53,852 nucleotides of DNA from a virus, in IMG/VR virus record IMGVR_UViG_3300009428_000011, positions 1 through 53,852 of that record. One strand, written 5' to 3'. Below the pieces are notes generated by a model. It had not been told where the DNA came from, ran no database searches, and saw only the letters and a list, made by a program, of their open reading frames with translations. This document shows positions 3,941 through 29,371 of the stretch, piece after piece. Positions within the stretch are counted from its first letter, which is position 1; each line of letters starts with the position of its first letter. A program made the translations under genes and the position numbers.

Positions 3941-4582
3941 ATGAGTTTCTCAGAAAGATTAATATCTCGAATGAATACCTTGGGAGTAAAAGGAAGTGAA
4001 CTAGCAAGGCAGCTTGGTACTGGTAGAGCTTCTGTTAGTCATTGGCGAACTGGTCAAGTCGCTCCATCTAGTGAGAACCTATTAAAACTATCGAAAGCAT
4101 TGAGATGCAATGCTAGGTGGCTTGCGTCCGGCGTTGGCACACCAGAAGGGAATGTAGAATTAGAGCTTGGGCCAGATCTAAGAGGTAAAGCTCCTTTAAT
4201 ATCTTGGGTTCAAGCAGGAAAATGGAAAGAAATAGATATGGCAGGCTTGCGCCAAACTGAAACGGTGTTTTATCAGCACACTGCAAATGTTAGCGATGAG
4301 GCGTTTGCGTTACGCGTCAAGGGTGACAGTATGACCTCTTTTAATGGAGGTAAATCAATTCCTGAAGGTTCGGTTATTATTGTCGATCCCAACGTACCAG
4401 CAGAGCATGGCAAAGTTGTTGTTGCGCGACTGGAAGAAAGCAACGAGGCAACATTAAAGCAACTGGTTATTGATGGCGGGGTTAAATACTTAAAGCCTTT
4501 CAATAGCAGTTATCCAACAATGCCGATAAATGGTAACTGCACAATTATTGGCGTGGTTAAGCAGCTGATTCAAGATTTTTAA
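3941..4582 (+). CDS. cI: CI-type repressor with LexA/S24 autocleavage domain
   Basis: 213 residues. Residues 5-65 are an HTH_3 DNA-binding domain (LARQLGTGRASVSHWRTGQ). Residues about 84-210 are an S24 peptidase domain: the scissile Ala92-Gly93 (WVQAG), nucleophile Ser130 (KGDSM) and general-base Lys173 (TLKQL) are all present. The protein should therefore be inactivated by RecA-stimulated self-cleavage, making the prophage SOS-inducible. It is transcribed away from cro and precedes two small envelope genes. The start has only a weak ribosome site (GGA, TTGGATTGTT), which is common for repressors kept at low level. Confidence 0.93.
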   Translation: MSFSERLISRMNTLGVKGSELARQLGTGRASVSHWRTGQVAPSSENLLKLSKALRCNARWLASGVGTPEGNVELELGPDLRGKAPLISWVQAGKWKEIDMAGLRQTETVFYQHTANVSDEAFALRVKGDSMTSFNGGKSIPEGSVIIVDPNVPAEHGKVVVARLEESNEATLKQLVIDGGVKYLKPFNSSYPTMPINGNCTIIGVVKQLIQDF

Positions 4583-10355: not shown

Positions 10356-10955
10356 ATGTTTGAACAATTTAAAGACCAAAAATTTAACCTTATTTACTGC
10401 GATCCTGCTTGGCAGTTTGGCAATAAAAAAACAGGCGGAAGCATGACAAGCGGCGCGGCGCACCAATACAAGTCAACAATGAGCGTAGACGAGCTAAAAG
10501 CTATGCCTATTGATGATATTGCGGCGGACGATTGCATATTGGTTATGTGGTACGTAGGTTCAATGCCACAAGAAGCCCTGGACGTTGTTAAGGCATGGGG
10601 CTTTACGCTTAAAAATATGAATGGCTTTGTATGGAACAAGCTAACTGTAAATAACAACCCGTTTTTTGGTATGGGCTTTTGGACTCGCGCCGGTAGCGAG
10701 TCGGCCATTATCGCAATTAAGGGCAAGCCGAAAGTAGCAAGCCGTTCAGTGCGTGCAGTAGGCAATTATGACACCGAAAGCCTAGACGAAATATTAGGCC
10801 GTGGCGTATTTTCCGGCGCTTACCCTATCGGACAGCATAGCGAGAAGCCAAACGAGTTTAGAGAAGCGTGTGTTGATTTGGCCGGCGATGACCACGCATC
10901 GAGCTATTTTCTCGCAAGCGCGTTAAAGGCTGGGCTGTTTGGGGTAATGAAGTAG
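10356..10955 (+). CDS. MT-A70-family adenine DNA methyltransferase
   Basis: 199 residues, the usual size for phage MT-A70-like enzymes. Catalytic motif IV is DPAW (residues 16-19, in LIYCDPAWQFG), a variant of DPPW. Further family blocks are DDCILVMWYVGSMPQEALDV and GFTLKNMNGFVWNK, and the C-terminal HSEKPNEFREAC segment is the SAM-site and Ser/Glu-rich motif. It transfers a methyl group from SAM to adenine N6 in DNA, here probably to protect phage DNA from restriction or to alter gene control. It is followed 25 bases later by a cytosine methyltransferase. Confidence 0.88.
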   Translation: MFEQFKDQKFNLIYCDPAWQFGNKKTGGSMTSGAAHQYKSTMSVDELKAMPIDDIAADDCILVMWYVGSMPQEALDVVKAWGFTLKNMNGFVWNKLTVNNNPFFGMGFWTRAGSESAIIAIKGKPKVASRSVRAVGNYDTESLDEILGRGVFSGAYPIGQHSEKPNEFREACVDLAGDDHASSYFLASALKAGLFGVMK

Positions 10956-16624: not shown

Positions 16625-17380
16625 TTATGCTGCGTGATCCTGATCTCGTTCACTCCAAAGCTTTTGAAGTTTGGCGAGCCCTTTGCCGGTAACAAGTGCT
16701 GTTACTGATTGCTTAAGCCCGTGATCTGGATGCTCCCAGCTACCAAGCTTAACATCAAGATAGCCTGCTTCTATTTTTGTTTGGTAAGGTTCGTTACGTC
16801 TTGAGATCCAACCTATTTGACGAAGAAACGCAAATAATCGCCGCTGACCTGTACCAATAATCTTCGCCGCTTGCGCTACACTTATTGCGTCAGGTGCTAC
16901 CTCAACTTGCTTAGCGAACGCTACGCGCGGGGCTTCCTCTTCAAGCTGATGCTCAAGCTTTAGTTTTTCTTGCTCAAGCCTAATGCGATCTTCTTCTGAT
17001 TGCATGGCCAGTTGCAAAATATCCATGCGCGATAAGTTTTCCGCTGGGGATTGGCGCTTGTTCAGTTCGTCACGCATTTCAAAGAATGCTTTGATCAGTG
17101 CTTTTTTGAATGCTTTAACCGTATCGTTGTTTCTAAAGTACGTTAATAGCAAGGCTGATTGCTGCTCGTTAAGAATTGCGTATTCAACCTTTGAGCCGCC
17201 GCCCTGCGGACGTTTCACCACATGGATTTCAAATCCAAGTGGGCCAAACTCTTCAAAATCAGCAATATTCTGGCGGATCACTTTTATTACCGACGCATGC
17301 GGGTTGCCCACCCCTTCGGCAATTGCCAGCGAGGTGGTGATCGGGCAATTTGTATCATTTAAGGTCACGATGCTGTTCAT
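16625..17380 (-). CDS. ant: Rha/KilAC-type antirepressor
   Basis: 251 residues. Residues about 10-110 are a Rha domain (TTSLAIAEGVGNPHASVIKV, then LNEQQSALLLTYFRNNDTV). Residues about 125-165 are a coiled linker. Residues about 170-245 are the KilAC/Ant C-terminal domain (ISVAQAAKIIGTGQRRLFAF with LRQIGWI). Proteins of this build bind and neutralise phage repressors. In P22 the equivalent ant gene is the output of the immI region and is held off by Mnt and Arc. Here it is the last gene of an operon headed by an Arc-like repressor, which supports the same role. Confidence 0.83.
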   Translation of the reverse strand: MNSIVTLNDTNCPITTSLAIAEGVGNPHASVIKVIRQNIADFEEFGPLGFEIHVVKRPQGGGSKVEYAILNEQQSALLLTYFRNNDTVKAFKKALIKAFFEMRDELNKRQSPAENLSRMDILQLAMQSEEDRIRLEQEKLKLEHQLEEEAPRVAFAKQVEVAPDAISVAQAAKIIGTGQRRLFAFLRQIGWISRRNEPYQTKIEAGYLDVKLGSWEHPDHGLKQSVTALVTGKGLAKLQKLWSERDQDHAA

Positions 17381-17649
17381 TGGATGATCCTCATTGGCAT
17401 TGATTCAAATTTAGCTTGCATATCGCCAAGGCGATCAGATACGAGCCACAATAAATTAGAAATCTGCTCTTTGGGAAACCCTTCTATATTGTCGTTACCC
17501 ACCATAAAATCTACGAGCGATTTAGTCTGTGTTAACAGGCGATCAAAGTCATCGTAACTGTCGTTAGTCATAATGTTTGCTGTTACGAGTAATTCACTTT
17601 TATTTACTCGTTGTGTGCTTTGCTCTTCATTTGGTATATTATTAGCCAT
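17377..17649 (-). CDS. Unknown immI-operon protein
   Basis: 90 residues, overlapping the antirepressor start by 4 bases (ATGA-type coupling). The product is acidic and helical (LVTANIMTNDSYDDFDRLLT, then KEQISNLLWLVSDRLGDMQ). No family was recognised. It lies between the Arc-like repressor and Ant, a place where P22-like phages vary. It could modulate the antirepressor. Confidence 0.6.
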   Translation of the reverse strand: MANNIPNEEQSTQRVNKSELLVTANIMTNDSYDDFDRLLTQTKSLVDFMVGNDNIEGFPKEQISNLLWLVSDRLGDMQAKFESMPMRIIQ

Positions 17650-17752
17650 GAAGACTCTCCTTTTCTATGTTTTGTTTGGTTAGTTCTTTACTGGCCTCAA
17701 CTGTTACAGCAGTTGGGGCTTTCATTTTATTAAGCTGCTTTAGTTTGCTCAT
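17642..17752 (-). CDS. 36-residue peptide in the arc-ant operon
   Basis: Begins MSKLKQLNKMKAPTAVTVEA and ends KQNIEKESLHG. It overlaps the upstream Arc-like frame by 23 bases and the downstream 90-residue gene by 8 bases. AAAAGGAGAG inside its last codons is the ribosome site of the following gene. It may be a coupling frame or a genuine small protein. Confidence 0.4.
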   Translation of the reverse strand: MSKLKQLNKMKAPTAVTVEASKELTKQNIEKESLHG

Positions 17753-17879
17753 TCATTTTTTCCTTTATCCACATTTCAATTTGCTTGTTCTGTGAGCGGC
17801 CATTTTCTTCGGCTTGCTCTCTTATAAACTCTCGCATTTCTGATGGTATTCTTAATCCAAATATTTTGTGCTTTCTCAT
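17730..17879 (-). CDS. arc: Arc-like ribbon-helix-helix repressor
   Basis: 49 residues: MRKHKIFGLRIPSEMREFIR then EQAEENGRSQNKQIEMWIKE. This is a complete ribbon-helix-helix of Arc size (P22 Arc has 53 residues). It has the beta-strand KIFGLRIP that enters the major groove, helix A, and the NGRS turn before helix B. It is the first gene of the leftward operon ending in the antirepressor, the same order as P22 arc-ant. It should repress the promoter at 17936-17964, whose spacer contains an Arc-type operator. Confidence 0.8.
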   Translation of the reverse strand: MRKHKIFGLRIPSEMREFIREQAEENGRSQNKQIEMWIKEKMNEQTKAA

Positions 17880-17899: not shown

Positions 17900-17931
17900 A
17901 TGATAGTAAAATGCAACCATTTGGCTACCAT
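17900..17931. promoter_or_regulatory. Second RHH operator, 32-bp imperfect dyad
   Basis: ATGATAGTAAAATG (17900-17913), 4 bases, CATTTGGCTACCAT (17918-17931). The arms match in 11 of 14 positions. With the minus-strand ATGGTAGTGAAATG at 17946-17959 this makes three copies of an ATGRTAG-N3-AATG half-site within 60 bp. It is a candidate site for the divergent Mnt-position repressor or for cooperative Arc binding. Confidence 0.6.
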
Positions 17932-17935
17932 TGAT

Positions 17936-17964
17936 AATGTAGTAGCATTTCACTACCATGTCAA
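17936..17964 (-). promoter_or_regulatory. Pant promoter for the arc-ant operon
   Basis: Reading leftward, a consensus TTGACA (17959-17964), a 17-bp spacer and TACATT (17936-17941). This is one of the best sigma-70 promoters in the window. The Arc-like operator fills the spacer, as in P22 Pant. Confidence 0.82.
17939..17959. promoter_or_regulatory. Arc-type operator within Pant
   Basis: GTAGTAG (17939-17945), 7 bases, CTACCAT (17953-17959). From memory, the P22 Arc operator is ATAGTAG-N7-CTATCAT, the same half-sites and the same spacing. Location between -35 and -10 is also the same. Confidence 0.72.
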
Positions 17965-17989
17965 TACCATCAATAAATATTGCCACCTT

Positions 17990-18754
17990 ATGCCAAAAAG
18001 ACCACCTCAAATAAATGTCAGAGTTTCTGAAGAATTAAAAGAGGCGCTGCATGATGCAGCTAATGTAAATGGACGATCAGTAAACTCTGAGATAGTTTCA
18101 AGATTAGAGAAGTCTTTTGGTGACGAAAGCATAGATGTTGATAGTGGCAGTAATGGCTTGGCAAAACAGCTGCAGGATTCTCTACTAAAACAGCAGAGGC
18201 TTATAGATGCGCATCGAACAATGACTGAGCAAATGCAGTTTATGGCTGATAAGTACAACTCATTAGTTCGCCATGTTTTACCGGCCATTTGCGAGTCTAA
18301 GGTTGTAAGACTTCAAAGAACGTTTACAACATACGGTGATAAAGATAGATTAATTGCTTTCTTTAAAGCTATACCCGACATCAGTCGTATTCTAGTTGCT
18401 GTTCGTGATGGGCATTCAAACTATAGTGCAATGACGTTCGTTATTTATAACGAGAGCCATATTTTTATCGCAGATGCGACACCCATGACGGTGGAAAGAT
18501 TGCCGCGTGAGGCTGAGGTTTTAGAATTGTTTGAAGAGCTAGATAGAGTTGGGCTACTTGACGTTACCGAATGTATTTTAAGTAGGGTTGAGCAAACGAA
18601 AGATTTGATTCCAGAAAAGGCGGTTAACACTCTAGAAAATAATGACTCTCGACCTATCAGGAGGAATATTTACGAATTTTTAAGCCTGTTTTTTAGCGAG
18701 CCAGAGCAGGTTAAGCCTGATTGGTTTGTTGACGAATGGAAAAAGTTGAATTAA
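17990..18754 (+). CDS. Large ribbon-helix-helix repressor in the Mnt position
   Basis: 254 residues from the ATG at 17990. The frame is open upstream to 17843, but the added 49 residues would be translated from the operator region and the RHH domain begins right at this Met. Residues about 7-45 are Arc-type RHH (PPQINVRVSEELKEALHDAA, NVNGRSVNSEIVSRLEKSF). Residues about 60-90 are a coiled helix (Mnt also has one, for tetramerisation). Residues about 95-254 are a domain not found in Mnt (82 residues) and not recognised: beta-rich with ISRILVAVRDGHSN and IFIADATPMTVER. It may sense a signal. Confidence 0.75.
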   Translation: MPKRPPQINVRVSEELKEALHDAANVNGRSVNSEIVSRLEKSFGDESIDVDSGSNGLAKQLQDSLLKQQRLIDAHRTMTEQMQFMADKYNSLVRHVLPAICESKVVRLQRTFTTYGDKDRLIAFFKAIPDISRILVAVRDGHSNYSAMTFVIYNESHIFIADATPMTVERLPREAEVLELFEELDRVGLLDVTECILSRVEQTKDLIPEKAVNTLENNDSRPIRRNIYEFLSLFFSEPEQVKPDWFVDEWKKLN

Positions 18755-20167: not shown

Positions 20168-23100
20168 CTAATCATTTTTGATTATGCGGTTAAATCGACT
20201 TCTTACCTCCCTTGCTGATTCATTGTCCATTATTAGTTGCGCTCGTTTTACTGCGCTTTCAAATGAACGATCTGATAGGTTTACTGGCGGCACTTGTTCG
20301 CGCAGTAAAAAGCCAACATTGCGCTTACTTATTCCTGCTAGTAGTAGTATTTGCATCACTTGCCTGCGGCTTGCGCCCCCTGTTTGAGCGGCTTTAATTA
20401 AGCGCGACATTTGCTTAAATGCTTGCTCTTGCTTTGTTTTAGCTCGCTCTTTAGCTGCGCTTATTTCATCATCAGATACTTTATTTGGATCTCTTAACAC
20501 GCCGCTTAGCTCTTTTCGGGCTTCGGCAATGGCGCTGTTAAAGTCAAACGTGCGGTAGTACAGGCCAACTTTAGGATCAAAGGTAGAGCTTCGGAAACCA
20601 GCAAGTGCCAGCATTTCATCCGACAGGCTATAAGGCTTGCCTGTTGAGCGCTTAACATCGGTTGCGGCCATGCCAATACGCCACGCATTATTTACTGCGC
20701 CAGGCGCTAAGCCTAATGCTAAGTGACCAGCAATATCAGCGCTTTTACGTATGGCTGTATCGTTTTCTTTATATACCTGACCGCCGCTTTGCTTTTTATT
20801 GCTGACCACTTCAAGTATTTTGCCTGTACTAATGTCAGTACCTAAAAATGGCGACACCATATCACTGAGCGATGAGGCGATAGCCTCGTTAACAGGCTGG
20901 TCACGCATCATGGCCTCTATTGGTCGTTTCCAGTAGGCGTAAGGGTCTAAGAACGACATATCAAAGTAACGTAAATTATTGTCGCTATCTCGACCTGCAT
21001 AGATAAAGGTTGAGTTTTTTTGCCATGGCGGGGCTAAGTCTCTTAGCGCTTCCTCTTCATCATCGGTCACGCCAAACATGGCGGCGCTTAATGCAGATAG
21101 AGCAAACATGCCGCCACTGGCCAAGCTCATGCCTACGATTCGTTTTGCGCCCATTTCGCGTATTTTGGGGTTGTCTGACTTTATTTCGCTGGCTGCAAGC
21201 TTCATCATGTTGCCTGTCGTTCTAATAACTTCAGCAGGGAACGATACAAACGTGCCGGCCAACGGGAACCGTGACAGCCACGCCCCCGCTTTACCTACTC
21301 GGCTATATGTTGGATAGGTATTTTGTATCCGCTCAGCGGCTAATGCTTCTGCTTCGCCTTCTTTCATGCCTGTGCGGACGAGTGCGGCTTTTTCATTTTC
21401 AAAGCCTACTATCTTCCAAAAGTCATCGCCAAAGCGATAGAAACCTGTCGCTTTAGCGGTTAGCCATCGTAGGTTTTCAAAAGCGGCTCCACTCTTACCT
21501 TCAAGCATTTGGTTTATCTTTCCATCAGTCATAACCTTGACTATATCGCCTGCGTTAGCTGAGTCATAAAGCACGCCCAACTTAATTAAGCGCTTTATGT
21601 AATCAGATTCGCCGTCAGTTACTTTTTCTTTAACTTGTGCGTTAAATGCTGCAACGGCTTGCTTCATGTATTTTTGATTAAAGTGTCCGTTGGCAACGGT
21701 GAAAAAATACGCCGACATTACATTACGCATGGCGGTTGTGGGTGATAGTACGGTTTTGCCGAATTTAATGAAGCCGTTTATTTGTATAGCCTTGTCTAGC
21801 CAGCCCTCACCACGTTCACCGCCCATCGCATCTTCAAACGCTTCTTTTATTTCTGGCGTTGTCCACATGCCATTCAGTGGTGCATATACTTCCGATGCTT
21901 CACCTGCAAGCTGCACTGTGGCATTAGGTGGCCGACTGTCCTTTTCAAAAATGAAATTGTTAATGCCCATATCGCGTATTGTGCTTAGGAGTTTATCATT
22001 AGCGATCATAGCTGACATTTTTGAGACGGATTTAGCGTAGTTAATGCGTGGGTCTGCGTATTCACCTAGTAATGCTCTGATTTCAGGTGATATGTCTTTG
22101 CGTGGTATTAGTGTAGATAAGTCTTTAGAGCCTAGCTTACTTTCGGCAATAAACGATCCCAAGCTGTCGTAAGCGGTGCTGGTTTTAACCATTTCGTTCA
22201 TAGTTACTTGGGCTTTTTGCTGTGCTTCTTTTGCTGTTGCGCCGTCTTTTTCATATTGCTGCATTAAGTATGCACGTGCATCATCAATTACCTTAGTCGG
22301 TATTTTTTCAAACCATTTAGGATCGTCAAATGCTTTATAGCTGCGGTTTAAATATTTGCCCATGTTACCTAGCATTTTTTCAAGGCGAGCCGACTCTTTA
22401 GGGTCAATATCGCCATCCTCTGCAACTCGCTGCTGAAGCTTGTTATTGACACTTGCAACGTAATCTTTTGTCAGTCCATCGATATGTTCGCGCATTAGTA
22501 TCAGCGTGTCTCGCTCACTTTGATTAAGCGCCTTGCCATCATTTTCACCTATTAAAAATTGGTGGTACTTAGTCCATTGATCATCGGCTAATCTGTCAGG
22601 ATTTATTTTGGCGGCTTTCATTGCTGAATTTAGCTTGCCTACCAGCATAGATACATCAAACTCATGTACAGCTACATCGCGATCACGGCCTCTCTTAGCT
22701 TGCTGGACGGTTTCAGGTAAGTTGCCACCTGGCATAAACCAGCGTGAAAGTTGGCGTTTTATTTTATCGCCTGCGGTTTTGTCGGTTTCGCGTAGTTGTG
22801 CGTTTAGCGCCTCCCATTCTGGCACGCTTGATTTTTCAAAGCGGTCGCGGTTAAACGCCTTTTTTACTGATTCCGCTATTTTGTTTGGTGCTGGGCTAGT
22901 GTCGTTATTGGCTGTGCGGCTGAATTTTTTATCTGACTGACTATAAGCTATTTCGGCTTCACTGCCAGCCATTGACTCACGCTGCGCTTTGAATCCTTTA
23001 ACTATACTCTCAAGCATTTCACGCATTGCTGTTAGCTCGGTATCTTCGCTATAAGCCAGGCCTACTTTATCAAGCTGTGCACGTATAAAGCGTTTAAGTG

Positions 23101-26100
23101 CTTGCCACCAATATTTAAGCTCGCCTTTTGTGGGCTCGTTTTCTACAAAGCGTGCAAATATTTCTTCAGCTTTAACGTCCTCGCTTGCATCCCAATAATC
23201 GTTGTTCGCATCTTTCCAGTATTTCTCAAACGCTTTACGGCCCTTGGTCTTTTTAATACGATCAATAAATTCTTGCTTAGCTTCTTTACCAATAACAGTA
23301 TCAAGGCCACCATGAGCAATAGTTTCATGCGCTAAAGTTTGTTTAAGATCCTCTATACTATCCATGTTTTCAGCAATGATATAAACAGTATTGGACATTT
23401 CACTATAAGCGCCCTTAACTGTTGCACCTTCTAAACTCATGCGCCATAGTTTTTCTGCTGTGGCGGTATCTTCAAGTATATTAACAGTGATGCCGTTGGC
23501 GCCTTTTAAGTCTTTAACAAACTGATCAGCAATACGCTGCGCTTGCTCAGTGCTGATTGATTTGCTGCTAGCTGGCTTTTTAGATTTTGACTTTGAAAAC
23601 TTAACATCGCTAGCTATTTGTACTTCTGGCGCATCGCTTGGCTTCTCAATAACGATTGCTTTAGTATTTACGTTTGTTGGGTTTAGCGAGCTTTTAAATG
23701 CGCCTTCTGGTAGCGTTTGCTGCTCTGCGTCTAAAGAATCTAGCCATGTGTTAAACTCTTTGTTTGCTTTGTTGCTTCGCTCACCTGCCATGCTAGACGT
23801 TATAGCCACAAGCTTGCCGCCTGGGTTAAGCATTTTATATGCGTGTTCAACATGCTTAATATCTTGGTCATTGCTAAATGGCGGGTTCATTACTATACGG
23901 TCGTAGCCATTTTCTGGCGCAAACTCTAAGAAGTCATTACCAACTAGGTTATGCCCCTTTTCTTGTAGTATTTCTCTAAGCTGCCCGCCCATTTCAACCA
24001 CGTCTACGGTCGCGCCTTGCTCTCTTGCTGCGTCGGCTAAAAGTCCGTTGCCTGCTGATGGTTCAAGCACACGCATGCCTGGCTCAATATCTGCCATTTC
24101 AGCAATATCGCTAGCAAGACTTTCAGGTGTTGGGAAAAAATCGTTAAATGCGTTTCTATTTCCTAACATTGTTCGCTGCAAGTCTCTTTCCATTTGACTT
24201 AGCTTGCTTGGTGCTTTACCTGTAGAGCTATTTTCGCTTAAATTCATGTACTCAATTAATGCAGTTCTAAGTGTCGGCACATTAGTAATACCCATTCTAT
24301 CTAGGCGCTTATAGTTTGCAGCGGCATCGCGTAGCATGTCGTATTGGCTAAGATTGTTTTCTATGTAATCAATATATTTAGGGATCAGGGTATCATCAAC
24401 ATCAATATAGTCTTGATCGCTCTTGCCTTTGACTAGCGCGTTCATCTTGCGACCCAGCAACACAAAGCCTTTAGTATCTTCCATATCGCGAGCAATTTCT
24501 TTTAGCCTAAATACCTTTGTGGTTTTTAAAGGCATTCTTGCGTGCTTTGCTCTTTCGGCCTTTGATACTTCGGCTTTAAATGTTCTTCTGCTGTTGCTGT
24601 CCTTATTCACTTGGCTTTCTGGCGCGCTATTAACTAGGCTTCTTGCTAGTGAGTCTAATAGCTCAACCTGCACTTTTTGAGTCGCATTTTTTAATACTAT
24701 CGTGTCCGAACCTGGTAGCTCTCGCATGATCTTAGATAGCTCAATTTCCTTTTCAGCTTTTGCGGTTGCTGATTCTGCCTCACCAAGACGTTTAATAGTG
24801 TTTGTTTTTCTATCTGCGTTTAGGGCTTCACTTGCGCGCTGCTCCGCTTTCTCAGCCATAGCTTGCAGTTTGTCCGCATTTTTCTGACTTCTCGCCTCCT
24901 GCCTTTCAGCCTGTTTCTCTGTGGTGTCTACAGTTTCACCGTTAACCCACCCACTAAATAGCTCGGCATCTTCTACAGATTTAAAGTAAAAATTACTCCG
25001 GTAGTAACCGCCACCCATTGAACGCGCAAAGGCTGCTGCTTCTTTAAATGCGTCTTTTCCAAGTCGGCTAATTACATTTACATTAAATATCTTTTCGCCT
25101 GTTTTGCCATGCACGCCCTCAGTAGGCTCGCCCAACTCAACATCGCCACCTGTTTTAAGACCTTCTTTTTCGGTTGGCTTTTCATTTTTGCTGGCCATGG
25201 TTTCACCTGCAATTAGCTTGTCGTATTCTGCTTGTTGCTCGGTAGTTAGGCTGTCTTGTCCCTGCGCTTTGATCTTCGCTTTGAAGTCATCTAGTGTTTG
25301 AGGGTTTTTAAGTTTATCTAGGTACTGATCAAATCTTTCTTTTTGCGCGTCTATTTTTGCCTTTTGCTCTTGTGAATATTCCGCGACCTGCTGATCAGTC
25401 AAAGAGTCAACATGCTTTTTAGCCTCGCTTATTTTATCCTCTAGCTTGTAAGAGTTCGTGGTAATAAACTCGCTCTGTTCGCCTATAAATCTAAAGCGCG
25501 TGAACATATCGCGGTATGCGCTATCTACCAGCTCGTCTTTTTTGGTGTCACTCCAAACATGACCGCTCACCAACCTAGTCAGTTGCTTTTTATTTAGCTT
25601 TCTAAGCTCGGCTTTTACAGAGTCTTTATTATCTGCCAGGTAATCAAGTACGCGCTTAACTTCTTGAACGCTACCAAGCTCGCCCTTACTCATTGCGTCT
25701 GTCATGCTGTCGTAAGCGTCCAAACCCGACTCGATAGGCGTTTGCTTGACTGGTGCTTGACTGGTGCTTGATTGCTCACCTCCCGTCACGGTTTCAATTT
25801 CTTTCCATAACTTACTGCGTGATCCAAGCACGCTTTTAAGCGTAGTCCCGCTATTTTTAAGTGCGCTTTCTATTTTATCTATTGCTTGTGCTGCCTCATC
25901 CCCATGAGTGCTTAAAATCCTATCCCATGCTTTTTTAGCTCTTGGCATAAACGCTGATTTGTTTAAGCCTGGGGTTTGCATTGCACCTAGCTCGTTAGCA
26001 AAATCAATGATCGATTTTTGCTTATCGCTTTCTTTTTTCCTTTGTGTTGCCGCTGCTCTTTGATCTTCATTCATTACCGCCTCAACTCTAGCGGCTATGT

Positions 26101-29100
26101 TTTTCCTTTTTGAGTCTAAGCGTTCAAGCTCTTCACTAGACTCTCTTGCTTGGCGCTCTGCTTTGCTGTTGTACTTATCAAGATCAAGGTTATCTCTACC
26201 GGTTATGGCCCATGACGGATTGTTAGCGGCCCGATTAGATTCGCGATAAATGTATGACTTACTATCTTCTAAATAACTCTCTATAACCTCTTTGGCTTTG
26301 CTCTTTCGCTCTGGCGTATCTAGCAGGCCCTTGTCGTTTAAATGTGTAAGTATAGACTCTGCACTAATCCTTAACTCTTCGTTAAAGTCTCGGCCTCTTC
26401 CTCTGTGCGTAGCCATGTTGTATTGGCGCTCTGTATCGCTATCAATTGCAGGTACGCTAACATCAACGCCAAACTTAGATGTATTAGCGTTTTGAGCGGT
26501 TGAACTATCTGGAATTTCCGGATTGTTGGATTGAGCTGTAGGCTCTTGGTCAAATAGAGTCGGCTCGCTATCTCCAAACATATCAGGGCCATTTTCTTGC
26601 TCTACGCTTTCTGGCTCTACTGCTGTTTCTTCTACTTGAAACGTATCATCAATGCCAAATTCTTTACGCAGTTCGCTGTACGCTTGTCGGTTAATACTTT
26701 CTGGTGTATCACTATTAAACTCTTGATACGTTTCAAACGATGATTCAGCTAGGGCCTTATCAATGGCTGGTTCATAACCTTCTTCAATTTTAGCCATGGC
26801 AACATCAAAGCCAGGCGAGCCTTTTTTAAGGCCCTGCTCTTTGGCTTGGCTCTGTAACCATTTGCGTTTAGTGGTTTTTAGTATTGGTGGTAGCTCGGCT
26901 GATTGTTCAGGATTAACAGCGTCTTGTTCACTATTTTCAAGTTTTTGCTCTGGAATAACACTGTTTTGTTCATTTTTAACTTCAATTTGTTCATTCGTAA
27001 CAGTCTGGCTATCCTGCGTTTCAGTGCTGGGCATTTCTTTAGCCAATGGCACTAGTTGTTCAATAGGCGCATTTAAGCGGATCACTTTTACTGGCTCGCC
27101 TTTTTCGCGGGCGGCTAGCCACTGGTGATGACCGTCGAGTACATAGTTATCATTCGATACTAATATAGAACGGTTGCCGCCTTCAAACTCCATTGCCTTT
27201 TTAACCTTGGCTGGTGAAAACTCTTGCTGCGTTGGCTTTAATGACTGTGCTGGCACTTCATCTTTTTCACTGTCGATGTCACGCGCTTTCATAAAATTAA
27301 CCATAGCGCCACGGCTCTCAGCTTTGACTTGTGGCATTTCTGAACGTGGTATATTTTTGGTGCCGCTCTCCTTGGTAAAAGATTGCCATTCATCATCAAT
27401 CATTTCACCTGCGATATTCTTACCTTCTTCGCTACTCACTTGTTCCGCGTCTACGTTTAACGATAACGCTTCACCTTCTTGTTGGGCTGGTTGCGCTTGA
27501 TCGCCCTGTTCATTTTGCGCAACCGTATCAGTTTCAGGGCTTTGCTCCGCTGCTGCCTGTTCTGAATCTTGCTTAGTGCCATCATCGCCTTTAATCGTCC
27601 AGCCAAAACCATTATCAAAACTTACTGCTTTTGTTTTGTGGCCGGCTCTGCGTGCTGCTCGCGCTTCTTTACTTAATAGCGCATCGCGTTTGGTTTTAAA
27701 TGCTTCACCATTTTTAGCCACGTTAACGCCGCTTTCGTTACCAGCAAAGATAATATCTTTTTGTGGTAATAAGTTTTGCGAGTCTTTACCGGCTTGCTTA
27801 ACCTGCTCTGCTGCGCGCTGCTGTGGTCGGCCATCTTCACCAAAAATAATATCTTTTTGTGCAATGCCTTTAGGCTGTGACTCAAGATCCGCTTGTGCTT
27901 GCTCGCGCATTTCACGGTTTTTAGTTTGCTCTGTTGTTGGCAGCTTGCCTTGCTCTGGTATTACTTGGCCGTCTATTGGTGCGTTTTCTATGCCTTGTGC
28001 GTTTTTAGCGTCTGGACCTAATAGCTCGCCTTCGTGCTGATACTTTATAGGACTAAAGCGATCCTCTGGCGTTGGTGACTTGTCAAACGCTGCCGCTTTT
28101 ACTCGCTCGTCTACAGTAGGTGCGTTGTTGCCTGCTTCTAAGTCTCTTAGCGACTGTTGCGCTGGGCTTGTAAGCATATCACCATACTGGCCGGCTGCTT
28201 TTGCTGTCTGGTCAAAGCCTGCTTGTCTTGCGGCTGTTGGCGCATCGTAATCAATATCATCATTTTTAAATACAGGCGTTTCGGTATCTTCTGGTATTGT
28301 TTGCGCTTGCTCTGTTTCTTGTGATCCCGGCTGATTTTGTTGGGCTGCGGCTGTAAACAAAGGATCATCAATGCCGAATTTTTCTTTCATTGTACGGGCA
28401 ACAATTGCTGACGCTTCAACCTCTGTAAAACCTTGCTTAATGGCTGAGTCGTATTGCTGCTTTTTAACTGTTTCAATGGCTTCTTCTGGTGCTGCGCCTG
28501 CTTCTACAAGCTGATCAACACCTTCCTTAACGGCTTCTGCTGATTTTTGCTGATAACCCATAGCCTTTTGCGCCGTTTCTGAGCCGGTACGCATAACGCC
28601 ACCAACCAAGAGGCCACCAACAAAGGCTTCGTCTAGCCCTTCAAATTCATCAACGCTTTTGCCAGCACCCCATTGCGCTAGTGCTTCTTGCCCTGTCTCA
28701 GTTAAACCCTCTGCGCCTGCGCCTTTCAGTATGCGCTTAGCAAAGGTTGGATCGCGTACCGCTTCGACCAGCTCACCACGGCCCATGCGTTTAGCCGTTT
28801 CGACTACGCCATCTTTTAAAATGTCTTTACCAAGTTGGCCCATGCTAACTTTGATACCTAAACGCTCAAGTAACATTTGCCCGGCACCGGACGCAACCGC
28901 TTTAACTTCGTCTTTTTCGCCTTCTGGTTGTTTCTCGTAAGCTTCGTTAGCTAAGCCGCCCGCCATACCAAACGCACCAACACCGGTAGCCGCACCCGCC
29001 ATGTAGGGCAGTGAGCCCGCAACTAGTTCGCCTGTGTAGCTACCTAAATCGCTGAGGCTTTCAATGTCCTTATATGATTTTACTGTCGGCTCGTACTGCT

Positions 29101-29371
29101 CTTGCTCTTTAACGTTACGATCAATGCCTTCTTGAGCCCACTGCGATAACGCTCCGCCTTGACCTATTGCACGACCTATAGCACCCGTTTGTTCTTCCTC
29201 TGGCACTCCAACGTCAGTAAAGCCCTTAACGGCTCGGTACCCAATCTCTTGTAACTTATCAACACCTGCCCCTAGTGCTGCAGACATACCTCCTTCAGCT
29301 TCTGGCTTTGCAAAGGGATCGATAAATTCAATTTCTTTATTAGTAAATGGGTCTAATATTTTATTGGCCAT
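20168..29371 (-). CDS. Giant polyvalent ejection protein (3067 residues)
   Basis: The last gene of the late operon. Approximate domains: 1-280, Gly/Ala-rich partly hydrophobic region (SYTGELVAGSLPYMAGAATG), plausibly membrane-active; 480-630, short DNA-repeat-like motifs including QKDIIF twice; about 715-780, ParB-like nuclease/CTPase fold (ILVSNDNYVLDGHHQWLAAR); about 1150-1720, helical linkers; about 1745-1880, N6-adenine methyltransferase with SAM loop EPSAGNG and catalytic NPPF; about 1930-2110, zincin-like peptidase with AHETIAHGGL (HExxxH type); 2150-3067, long helical region with LPD-like segments and LSRFPLAGTFVSFPAEVIRT. Such polyvalent proteins enter the host with DNA and protect it. 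It follows the ejection cassette. Enzyme activity is inferred from motifs. Confidence 0.85.
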   Translation of the reverse strand: MANKILDPFTNKEIEFIDPFAKPEAEGGMSAALGAGVDKLQEIGYRAVKGFTDVGVPEEEQTGAIGRAIGQGGALSQWAQEGIDRNVKEQEQYEPTVKSYKDIESLSDLGSYTGELVAGSLPYMAGAATGVGAFGMAGGLANEAYEKQPEGEKDEVKAVASGAGQMLLERLGIKVSMGQLGKDILKDGVVETAKRMGRGELVEAVRDPTFAKRILKGAGAEGLTETGQEALAQWGAGKSVDEFEGLDEAFVGGLLVGGVMRTGSETAQKAMGYQQKSAEAVKEGVDQLVEAGAAPEEAIETVKKQQYDSAIKQGFTEVEASAIVARTMKEKFGIDDPLFTAAAQQNQPGSQETEQAQTIPEDTETPVFKNDDIDYDAPTAARQAGFDQTAKAAGQYGDMLTSPAQQSLRDLEAGNNAPTVDERVKAAAFDKSPTPEDRFSPIKYQHEGELLGPDAKNAQGIENAPIDGQVIPEQGKLPTTEQTKNREMREQAQADLESQPKGIAQKDIIFGEDGRPQQRAAEQVKQAGKDSQNLLPQKDIIFAGNESGVNVAKNGEAFKTKRDALLSKEARAARRAGHKTKAVSFDNGFGWTIKGDDGTKQDSEQAAAEQSPETDTVAQNEQGDQAQPAQQEGEALSLNVDAEQVSSEEGKNIAGEMIDDEWQSFTKESGTKNIPRSEMPQVKAESRGAMVNFMKARDIDSEKDEVPAQSLKPTQQEFSPAKVKKAMEFEGGNRSILVSNDNYVLDGHHQWLAAREKGEPVKVIRLNAPIEQLVPLAKEMPSTETQDSQTVTNEQIEVKNEQNSVIPEQKLENSEQDAVNPEQSAELPPILKTTKRKWLQSQAKEQGLKKGSPGFDVAMAKIEEGYEPAIDKALAESSFETYQEFNSDTPESINRQAYSELRKEFGIDDTFQVEETAVEPESVEQENGPDMFGDSEPTLFDQEPTAQSNNPEIPDSSTAQNANTSKFGVDVSVPAIDSDTERQYNMATHRGRGRDFNEELRISAESILTHLNDKGLLDTPERKSKAKEVIESYLEDSKSYIYRESNRAANNPSWAITGRDNLDLDKYNSKAERQARESSEELERLDSKRKNIAARVEAVMNEDQRAAATQRKKESDKQKSIIDFANELGAMQTPGLNKSAFMPRAKKAWDRILSTHGDEAAQAIDKIESALKNSGTTLKSVLGSRSKLWKEIETVTGGEQSSTSQAPVKQTPIESGLDAYDSMTDAMSKGELGSVQEVKRVLDYLADNKDSVKAELRKLNKKQLTRLVSGHVWSDTKKDELVDSAYRDMFTRFRFIGEQSEFITTNSYKLEDKISEAKKHVDSLTDQQVAEYSQEQKAKIDAQKERFDQYLDKLKNPQTLDDFKAKIKAQGQDSLTTEQQAEYDKLIAGETMASKNEKPTEKEGLKTGGDVELGEPTEGVHGKTGEKIFNVNVISRLGKDAFKEAAAFARSMGGGYYRSNFYFKSVEDAELFSGWVNGETVDTTEKQAERQEARSQKNADKLQAMAEKAEQRASEALNADRKTNTIKRLGEAESATAKAEKEIELSKIMRELPGSDTIVLKNATQKVQVELLDSLARSLVNSAPESQVNKDSNSRRTFKAEVSKAERAKHARMPLKTTKVFRLKEIARDMEDTKGFVLLGRKMNALVKGKSDQDYIDVDDTLIPKYIDYIENNLSQYDMLRDAAANYKRLDRMGITNVPTLRTALIEYMNLSENSSTGKAPSKLSQMERDLQRTMLGNRNAFNDFFPTPESLASDIAEMADIEPGMRVLEPSAGNGLLADAAREQGATVDVVEMGGQLREILQEKGHNLVGNDFLEFAPENGYDRIVMNPPFSNDQDIKHVEHAYKMLNPGGKLVAITSSMAGERSNKANKEFNTWLDSLDAEQQTLPEGAFKSSLNPTNVNTKAIVIEKPSDAPEVQIASDVKFSKSKSKKPASSKSISTEQAQRIADQFVKDLKGANGITVNILEDTATAEKLWRMSLEGATVKGAYSEMSNTVYIIAENMDSIEDLKQTLAHETIAHGGLDTVIGKEAKQEFIDRIKKTKGRKAFEKYWKDANNDYWDASEDVKAEEIFARFVENEPTKGELKYWWQALKRFIRAQLDKVGLAYSEDTELTAMREMLESIVKGFKAQRESMAGSEAEIAYSQSDKKFSRTANNDTSPAPNKIAESVKKAFNRDRFEKSSVPEWEALNAQLRETDKTAGDKIKRQLSRWFMPGGNLPETVQQAKRGRDRDVAVHEFDVSMLVGKLNSAMKAAKINPDRLADDQWTKYHQFLIGENDGKALNQSERDTLILMREHIDGLTKDYVASVNNKLQQRVAEDGDIDPKESARLEKMLGNMGKYLNRSYKAFDDPKWFEKIPTKVIDDARAYLMQQYEKDGATAKEAQQKAQVTMNEMVKTSTAYDSLGSFIAESKLGSKDLSTLIPRKDISPEIRALLGEYADPRINYAKSVSKMSAMIANDKLLSTIRDMGINNFIFEKDSRPPNATVQLAGEASEVYAPLNGMWTTPEIKEAFEDAMGGERGEGWLDKAIQINGFIKFGKTVLSPTTAMRNVMSAYFFTVANGHFNQKYMKQAVAAFNAQVKEKVTDGESDYIKRLIKLGVLYDSANAGDIVKVMTDGKINQMLEGKSGAAFENLRWLTAKATGFYRFGDDFWKIVGFENEKAALVRTGMKEGEAEALAAERIQNTYPTYSRVGKAGAWLSRFPLAGTFVSFPAEVIRTTGNMMKLAASEIKSDNPKIREMGAKRIVGMSLASGGMFALSALSAAMFGVTDDEEEALRDLAPPWQKNSTFIYAGRDSDNNLRYFDMSFLDPYAYWKRPIEAMMRDQPVNEAIASSLSDMVSPFLGTDISTGKILEVVSNKKQSGGQVYKENDTAIRKSADIAGHLALGLAPGAVNNAWRIGMAATDVKRSTGKPYSLSDEMLALAGFRSSTFDPKVGLYYRTFDFNSAIAEARKELSGVLRDPNKVSDDEISAAKERAKTKQEQAFKQMSRLIKAAQTGGASRRQVMQILLLAGISKRNVGFLLREQVPPVNLSDRSFESAVKRAQLIMDNESAREVRSRFNRIIKND

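Follow-up and report, generated by a model that had tools for sequence, protein, structure and literature searches.

A predicted P22 immI-type control region with Arc-type operators adjoins a Rha/KilAC antirepressor in a temperate phage genome

A virus record from IMG/VR (IMGVR_UViG_3300009428_000011; all 53,852 bp were analyzed and are referred to here as the window) carries what, judged from its sequence, is a control region of the P22 immI type; the antirepressor attached to it has Rha/KilAC domains and does not resemble P22 Ant. At the center of the region is a repeated motif that very probably marks two genuine repressor-binding sites through which the antirepressor genes are controlled. 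With a probability of about 0.76, we favor an immI-type switch in which a divergently encoded 254-residue RHH protein would bind the two operators, O1 and O2, silence the antirepressor operon and autoregulate, and in which a 49-residue Arc-like protein is probably not the reader of the sites. The sites, the promoter geometry, the gene order, the sar homology and the protein families are read directly from the DNA and its translations.

The window phage was temperate and of lambdoid type, with genes for CI-like and CII-like regulators, O/P replication, Erf, integrase and a portal protein closest to that of Vibrio phage douglas 12A4 (54%). The CI-like repressor was encoded at 3941-4582. The integrase was adjoined by a divergent gene pair, which encodes the 49-residue Arc-like protein on the minus strand (17730-17879; Pfam Arc, 5.9e-10) and the 254-residue RHH protein on the plus strand (17990-18754; Pfam Arc, 1.5e-10, with an alignment to Arc in PDB). 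The 49-residue gene was the first of a minus-strand operon and was followed by a gene for a 90-residue protein with no family assigned (17377-17649), which overlapped the start of the last gene, the antirepressor (16625-17380). The latter had a Rha N-terminal and a KilAC (ANT) C-terminal domain (Pfam ANT 1.1e-23, pRha 8.5e-15; PHROG anti-repressor 1.6e-50). As in an immI region, therefore, two divergent RHH genes of the Arc/Mnt family lay upstream of an antirepressor. BLASTP detected no match between this antirepressor and residues 1-175 of P22 Ant (E 1.1), so that, given the Rha/KilAC domains in place of P22 Ant homology, the control region appears immI-like and the effector gene is not P22 ant. 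A single 3067-residue protein (20168-29371, minus strand) also adjoined the module.

The motif ATGRTAGNNNAATG (ATGRTAG-N3-AATG) occurred exactly three times in the window, at 17900-17913 on the plus strand (ATGATAGTAAAATG) and at 17931-17918 (ATGGTAGCCAAATG) and 17959-17946 (ATGGTAGTGAAATG) on the minus strand, where 0.06 copies were expected from dinucleotide shuffles, confirming the three copies within 60 bp described in the first-pass annotation. The ATGRTAG core alone was at chance level across the window (10 versus 9.87 expected), and the clustering is therefore the signal: the 110-bp intergenic region contained five half-sites with at most one mismatch, against 0.52 expected. AATG was rejected as a part of the half-site, since it was AACTG at one site in the relative L001 and was not general in other loci. 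All three ATGRTAG cores were intact in L001 (97%).

The only match without mismatches to RTAGTAG-N7-CTAYYAT in the window was GTAGTAG-N7-CTACCAT at 17939-17959, which we call operator O1. It lay, as the annotation had claimed, between the antirepressor -35 and -10, with the position and spacing of P22 Oarc. Operator O2, ATGATAG-N7-CAACCAT (17900-17920, with TAAAATG as its central seven), was located downstream of the antirepressor promoter start. A half-site matrix built from P22 and six other loci, with the window and its relatives left out, was applied with N7 spacing to the whole 53.8-kb window and ranked O1 (19.5 bits) and O2 (15.4 bits) as the best and second-best 21-mers, the next site elsewhere scoring 11.8 bits. 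On the minus strand, a half-site ATGGTAG followed directly after the antirepressor -10 (17925-17931), 28 bp from the ATGGTAG half-site of O1 (17953-17959), which overlapped both the repressor -10 and the end of the -35 of the antirepressor promoter. A possible additional half-site, ATGGTAT (six of seven positions; ATACCAT on the plus strand), was found at 17964-17970 on the minus strand, 11 bp from the O1 half-site and mirroring the O2 array; it may be due to chance. The half-sites thus formed two 32-bp arrays (half-N7-half-N4-half) placed 39 bp apart. Since the right half of O2 matched at six of seven positions and the left half of O1 was GTAGTAG, modest affinities are possible. Nucleotide searches of phages and plasmids yielded nothing of use for the operator.

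Two promoters were predicted to face each other across this region. The Pant-like antirepressor promoter (17936-17964, minus strand) consisted of TTGACA (17964-17959), a 17-bp spacer and TACATT (17941-17936), and the Pmnt-like promoter of the 254-residue gene (17931-17959, plus strand) mirrored it with TTGATA (17931-17936), a 17-bp spacer and TACCAT (17954-17959). The first-pass description of a consensus -35 and -10 was right for TTGACA and overstated for TACATT, which matched the -10 consensus at only four of six positions; the -10 (TACCAT) and the ribosome site of the 254-residue gene were also weak. By consensus match, the two promoters overlapped as mirror images, as they do in immI, and their hexamers shared 1 bp at both ends, which is exactly the Pmnt/Pant register annotated for P22 (X01916). 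Without gaps, the Pant-like promoter was identical to P22 Pant at 28 of 37 positions, including 17 of the 25 outside both hexamers, and this was the best place in the window for such an alignment. This identity supports the earlier claim that the Pant operator is of the P22 type and shares its N7 center.

In P22, Mnt represses arc and ant, the sar RNA binds the mRNA of ant, and the C2 repressor is bound by the Ant protein (PMC11016777). The window shared with P22 immI the divergent RHH genes, the overlapping face-to-face promoters in the same register, the N7 operator between -35 and -10, a second operator at the antirepressor start site, beginning 28 bp from the first, a sar RNA between arc and ant, and the antirepressor in last place. 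The 28-bp register from the first to the second half-site was found in P22 (to the Omnt half) and in the window, and by eye also in loci L004 and L123. Unlike P22, however, the window had a second operator with Arc-type rather than Mnt-type half-sites, a 254-residue protein in the Mnt position with the Arc triad and an unassigned C-terminal domain, a protein without the Arc triad in the Arc position, an extra 90-residue gene and an antirepressor without a BLASTP match to P22 Ant; the module also lay beside the integrase, whereas P22 immI is inside the late operon. The long-range conservation suggested at first pass was thus borne out for the operator, the promoter register, the gene order and even the sar RNA.

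The sar-like antisense RNA (17657-17728, plus strand) was located between the Arc-like and 90-residue genes, antisense to the leader that precedes the 90-residue and antirepressor genes, and its 5' end lay just short of the start codon of the 90-residue gene. The Rfam sar model matched weakly (21.8 bits, below its gathering cutoff of 43). A held-out covariance model was built on 14 sar-like hairpins taken from P22 and from other phages outside the family of the window, and it placed its best match in the window at this position (29.7 bits; E 7e-5, the E-values being rough). The 12-bp terminator hairpin (17693-17720) had a z-score of -5.4, and the 19-base pattern ACTGTTNNNGCAGTTGGGG was present with zero mismatches in both P22 and the window. 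The same model matched all four close relatives, L001-L004, as well as many of the other immI-type loci searched. Its second match in the window (10532-10610, plus strand; 19.7 bits, E 0.02) fell inside a coding region and is probably due to chance.

We compared the DNA-reading strands of the two RHH proteins with that of Arc. In the Arc-operator structure of Raumann and colleagues from 1994, DNA is reportedly read by Q9, N11 and R13, and the title of a 1989 paper by Knight and Sauer refers to a short N-terminal region that sets Arc/Mnt specificity; PMC3325190 cites both papers. The 49-residue protein matched Arc (5.9e-5) and pArc (9.8e-9) in PDB, consistent with an RHH fold similar to Arc, and its reading triad was I/G/R (KIFGLRIP) instead of Q/N/R. 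TACAC-N2-TGTA, the PxGxR operator, was considered as another target of an I/G/R protein; there was none near the locus and no excess. The N-terminal RHH domain of the 254-residue protein, in contrast, contained PPQINVRV, the exact Arc triad (Q7/N9/R11). This protein differed from Mnt, which has a short C-terminal tetramerization region and a GGTCCAC operator, in its length and in its ATGRTAG-type operator. It was predicted to form a helix at residues 54-100 (low confidence), followed by a domain without family match. The C-terminal ~155 residues had no family or fold match, the conserved domain-coding segment (18281-18754) had no Pfam, NCBIfam or PDB match above cutoff (a Pfam ILEI match was below it and was dismissed), and the predicted structure, of low confidence (pLDDT 62), had no PDB fold match at E <= 0.001. 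No homologue of the 254-residue protein was found in sequenced phages or, by conserved C-terminal motifs, in genomes. A copy of the C-terminal domain, 27% identical, was present on three mobilizable Shewanella plasmids; in the two plasmids inspected, it forms a small gene of its own.

Natural swaps were found among the relatives L001-L004, which are IMG/VR prophages of the same lineage, several of the relatives coming from metagenomes. All four resembled the window in having a 254-residue protein with the same C-terminal domain, a 90-residue protein and a sar-like hairpin, and L002-L004 also had the Rha/KilAC antirepressor, with about 90% DNA identity to the window on the antirepressor side. 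L001 carried the QINVR triad and the operator of the window together with a different antirepressor (L001 1-759; KilA-N type by eye), suggesting that the antirepressor part of the module is exchanged independently. L002-L004 differed from the window in their RHH N-termini and operators: the divergent protein of L004 had the triad QFKVR beside an operator of AGAACCA half-sites, and that of L002 and L003 had PFGVR beside TACAC/GTGTA sites. The N-termini of L002 and L004 were 41-48% identical to that of the window, and their C-terminal parts (alignment columns 166-257) were 68% identical to the window and 92% to each other. The 49-residue protein was 94-96% conserved in L001 and L004. Because L004 keeps the 49-residue protein and swaps both the N-terminus of the divergent protein and the operator, the N-terminus of the 254-residue protein appears to track the operator and the 49-residue protein does not. 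The small Arc-like genes between the operator and the 90-residue gene varied, with the triads IGR in the window, QKR and IGR in L004, and PSR and QKR in L002 and L003.

These comparisons bear on the identity of the reader. The first-pass annotation held that the Arc-like gene directly downstream completes the circuit, that is, that the 49-residue protein would read ATGRTAG as P22 Arc does and exert negative feedback on the antirepressor operon. Its Arc family membership, the place of its gene next to the promoter, the P22 precedent and the spacing identical to P22 Oarc speak for this claim. It found no support in the I/G/R triad or in L004, where the protein is kept (94%) beside a wholly different operator and where a separate Arc-like gene adjoining the promoter has the triad QKR, which matches the AGAACCA-type operator. 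The Aliivibrio locus L201 repeats the pattern, with QNR on the Mnt side, a GLR-type triad on the Arc side and an ATGGTAG operator. We therefore regard it as quite unlikely that the 49-residue protein sets the specificity, and it probably does not read the ATGRTAG sites. The annotation did also name the 254-residue protein among the candidate binders. O1 could nevertheless be shared with the Arc-like protein, as the spacer site of P22 belongs to Arc and not to Mnt.

An arrangement in which both RHH proteins use the sites, through mixed oligomers or competition, with the 254-residue protein setting specificity and the 49-residue protein as a non-reading partner or antagonist, is also unlikely. 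In all four close relatives, as in the window, two RHH genes flank a common intergenic region, and the shuffling of Arc-like genes as cassettes suggests a role beyond base reading. However, RHH dimer interfaces are usually specific, and the 49-residue protein could be decaying or have other targets. It is scarcely credible that chance or the base composition of an AT-rich promoter region produced the cluster of half-sites: the core is not enriched across the window and the motif was picked after the sequence had been seen, but the independent matrix put its two best sites here, the P22 alignment coincides with them, and the motif recurs in the same place in other phages.

For the favored switch, we infer which protein binds, the direction of regulation and the target of the antirepressor as follows. 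The 254-residue protein would dimerize through its N-terminal RHH domain, insert its QINVR strand into the major groove at the ATGRTAG half-sites and fill two 21-bp operators, O1 within the antirepressor promoter and O2 just past its start. Occupancy of O1 and O2 would keep the operon for the Arc-like protein, the 90-residue protein and the Rha/KilAC antirepressor off in the lysogen. Because O1 overlaps the -10 of the promoter of the 254-residue gene, the protein would also limit its own synthesis. The sar-like RNA would act as a translational lock on the message of the 90-residue protein and the antirepressor. If repression failed, the antirepressor would be made and would probably inactivate the CI-like repressor.

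We then surveyed divergent RHH pairs more widely. Viral contigs were scanned DNA-first, by the promoter-operator pattern alone, and the scan recovered two classes: P22-type loci, with HxNxR in Mnt and GGTCCAC as the second operator, and loci of the window's type, with QINIR on the Mnt side and ATGGTAGCC as the second operator. Some matches without an RHH gene nearby look like chance. The same promoter-operator occurred beside divergent Mnt-like QxNxR proteins in L123, L126, L130, L148, L153 and L155, and also in Aliivibrio L201. Like the window, L123, L126, L130 and L153 had TTGACATGRTAG-N7-CTACTA...TCAATGGTAGCC and Aliivibrio sp. EL58 (L201) had TTGACAATGGTAG-N7-CTACCAT...TCAATGGTAGCC, each with a divergent RHH protein containing PQINxR. 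Unlike in the window, the divergent proteins of these five loci were 72-140 residues long and lacked the C-terminal domain; the Arc-side proteins had QxNxR in L123, L126, L130 and L153 and PYGLR in L201. In L147 (8603, plus strand), a locus of P22 type, the Mnt triad was KxTxR instead of HxNxR and the second operator had GGTCACGGTGACC in place of GGTCCACGGTGGACC; with its Arc site still of the P22 pattern, the locus represents another natural swap.

An RHH motif scan was also carried out regardless of triad, with one genome per species pooled with the viral and phage loci, and it yielded 59 usable non-redundant divergent pairs. The strand carrying TTGAC decided which gene was taken as the Mnt side; this criterion leaves some loci ambiguous and misassigns at least one concordant locus (L074). 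Across these 59 pairs, no residue predicted shared operator 6-mers better than the Mnt-side residue at Arc position 11: loci equal at this column shared 5.44 more of them, compared with 2.54 for the runner-up column and 2.84 for the strongest column on the Arc side. This residue remained the best below 50% RHH identity (3.0), a filter that only partly removes the shared ancestry affecting the 6-mer comparison, and also when the Arc-side residue 11 differed as well (2.41); none of 500 label permutations matched it. ATRRTAG was present in 11 of 13 Mnt-QNR loci versus 6 of 38 loci in which neither protein was QNR (Fisher 1.5e-5, with loci treated as independent despite their ancestry). In the discordant pairs L245, L274, L201 and L215, the operator followed the Mnt side. 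The k-mer test favored the Arc side in L147, which has a P22-type mixed operator, and in L232; in both, one of the compared classes was a single locus. QNR loci with other operators (L075, L357, L362 and L311) indicate that the code is not exact, and a further 22 pairs from viral contigs fell by eye into these classes too, L311 and L357 being among the exceptions.

On balance, we lean toward the view that immI control regions (RHH pair, overlapping promoters, operators and sar) form a portable switch across proteobacterial prophages that is attached to unrelated antirepressors, and that the N-terminal strand of the divergent repressor and the operator specificity are exchanged together, as one unit. 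The code would be readable as QxNxR to GTAG, HxNxR to GGTCCAC, QxKxR to (G/A)ACC, PxGxR to TACAC/TGTAG and KxMxR to TGTC. If this is true, close relatives of one prophage would differ in secondary immunity type, and the code would predict which temperate phages have antirepressor immunity in common. To our knowledge, most work on P22 immI has concerned P22 itself and related Salmonella phages. Here we trace the control region, sar included, to another phage lineage whose effector gene is unrelated, and natural swaps of repressor strand and operator occur among the sister prophages. An RHH recognition code thereby becomes testable over many natural pairs, compared with few laboratory mutants. 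The literature searched, which included few subscription journals, contained no report of triad-operator covariation in this RHH family.

One of the surveyed phages, L123 (IMG/VR 2839585306_000004, 73,920 bp), contained several RHH pairs of differing triads (QNR, PGR and TSR/KNR) and five plus-strand sar-like matches with E < 0.001, as if immI modules were stacked.
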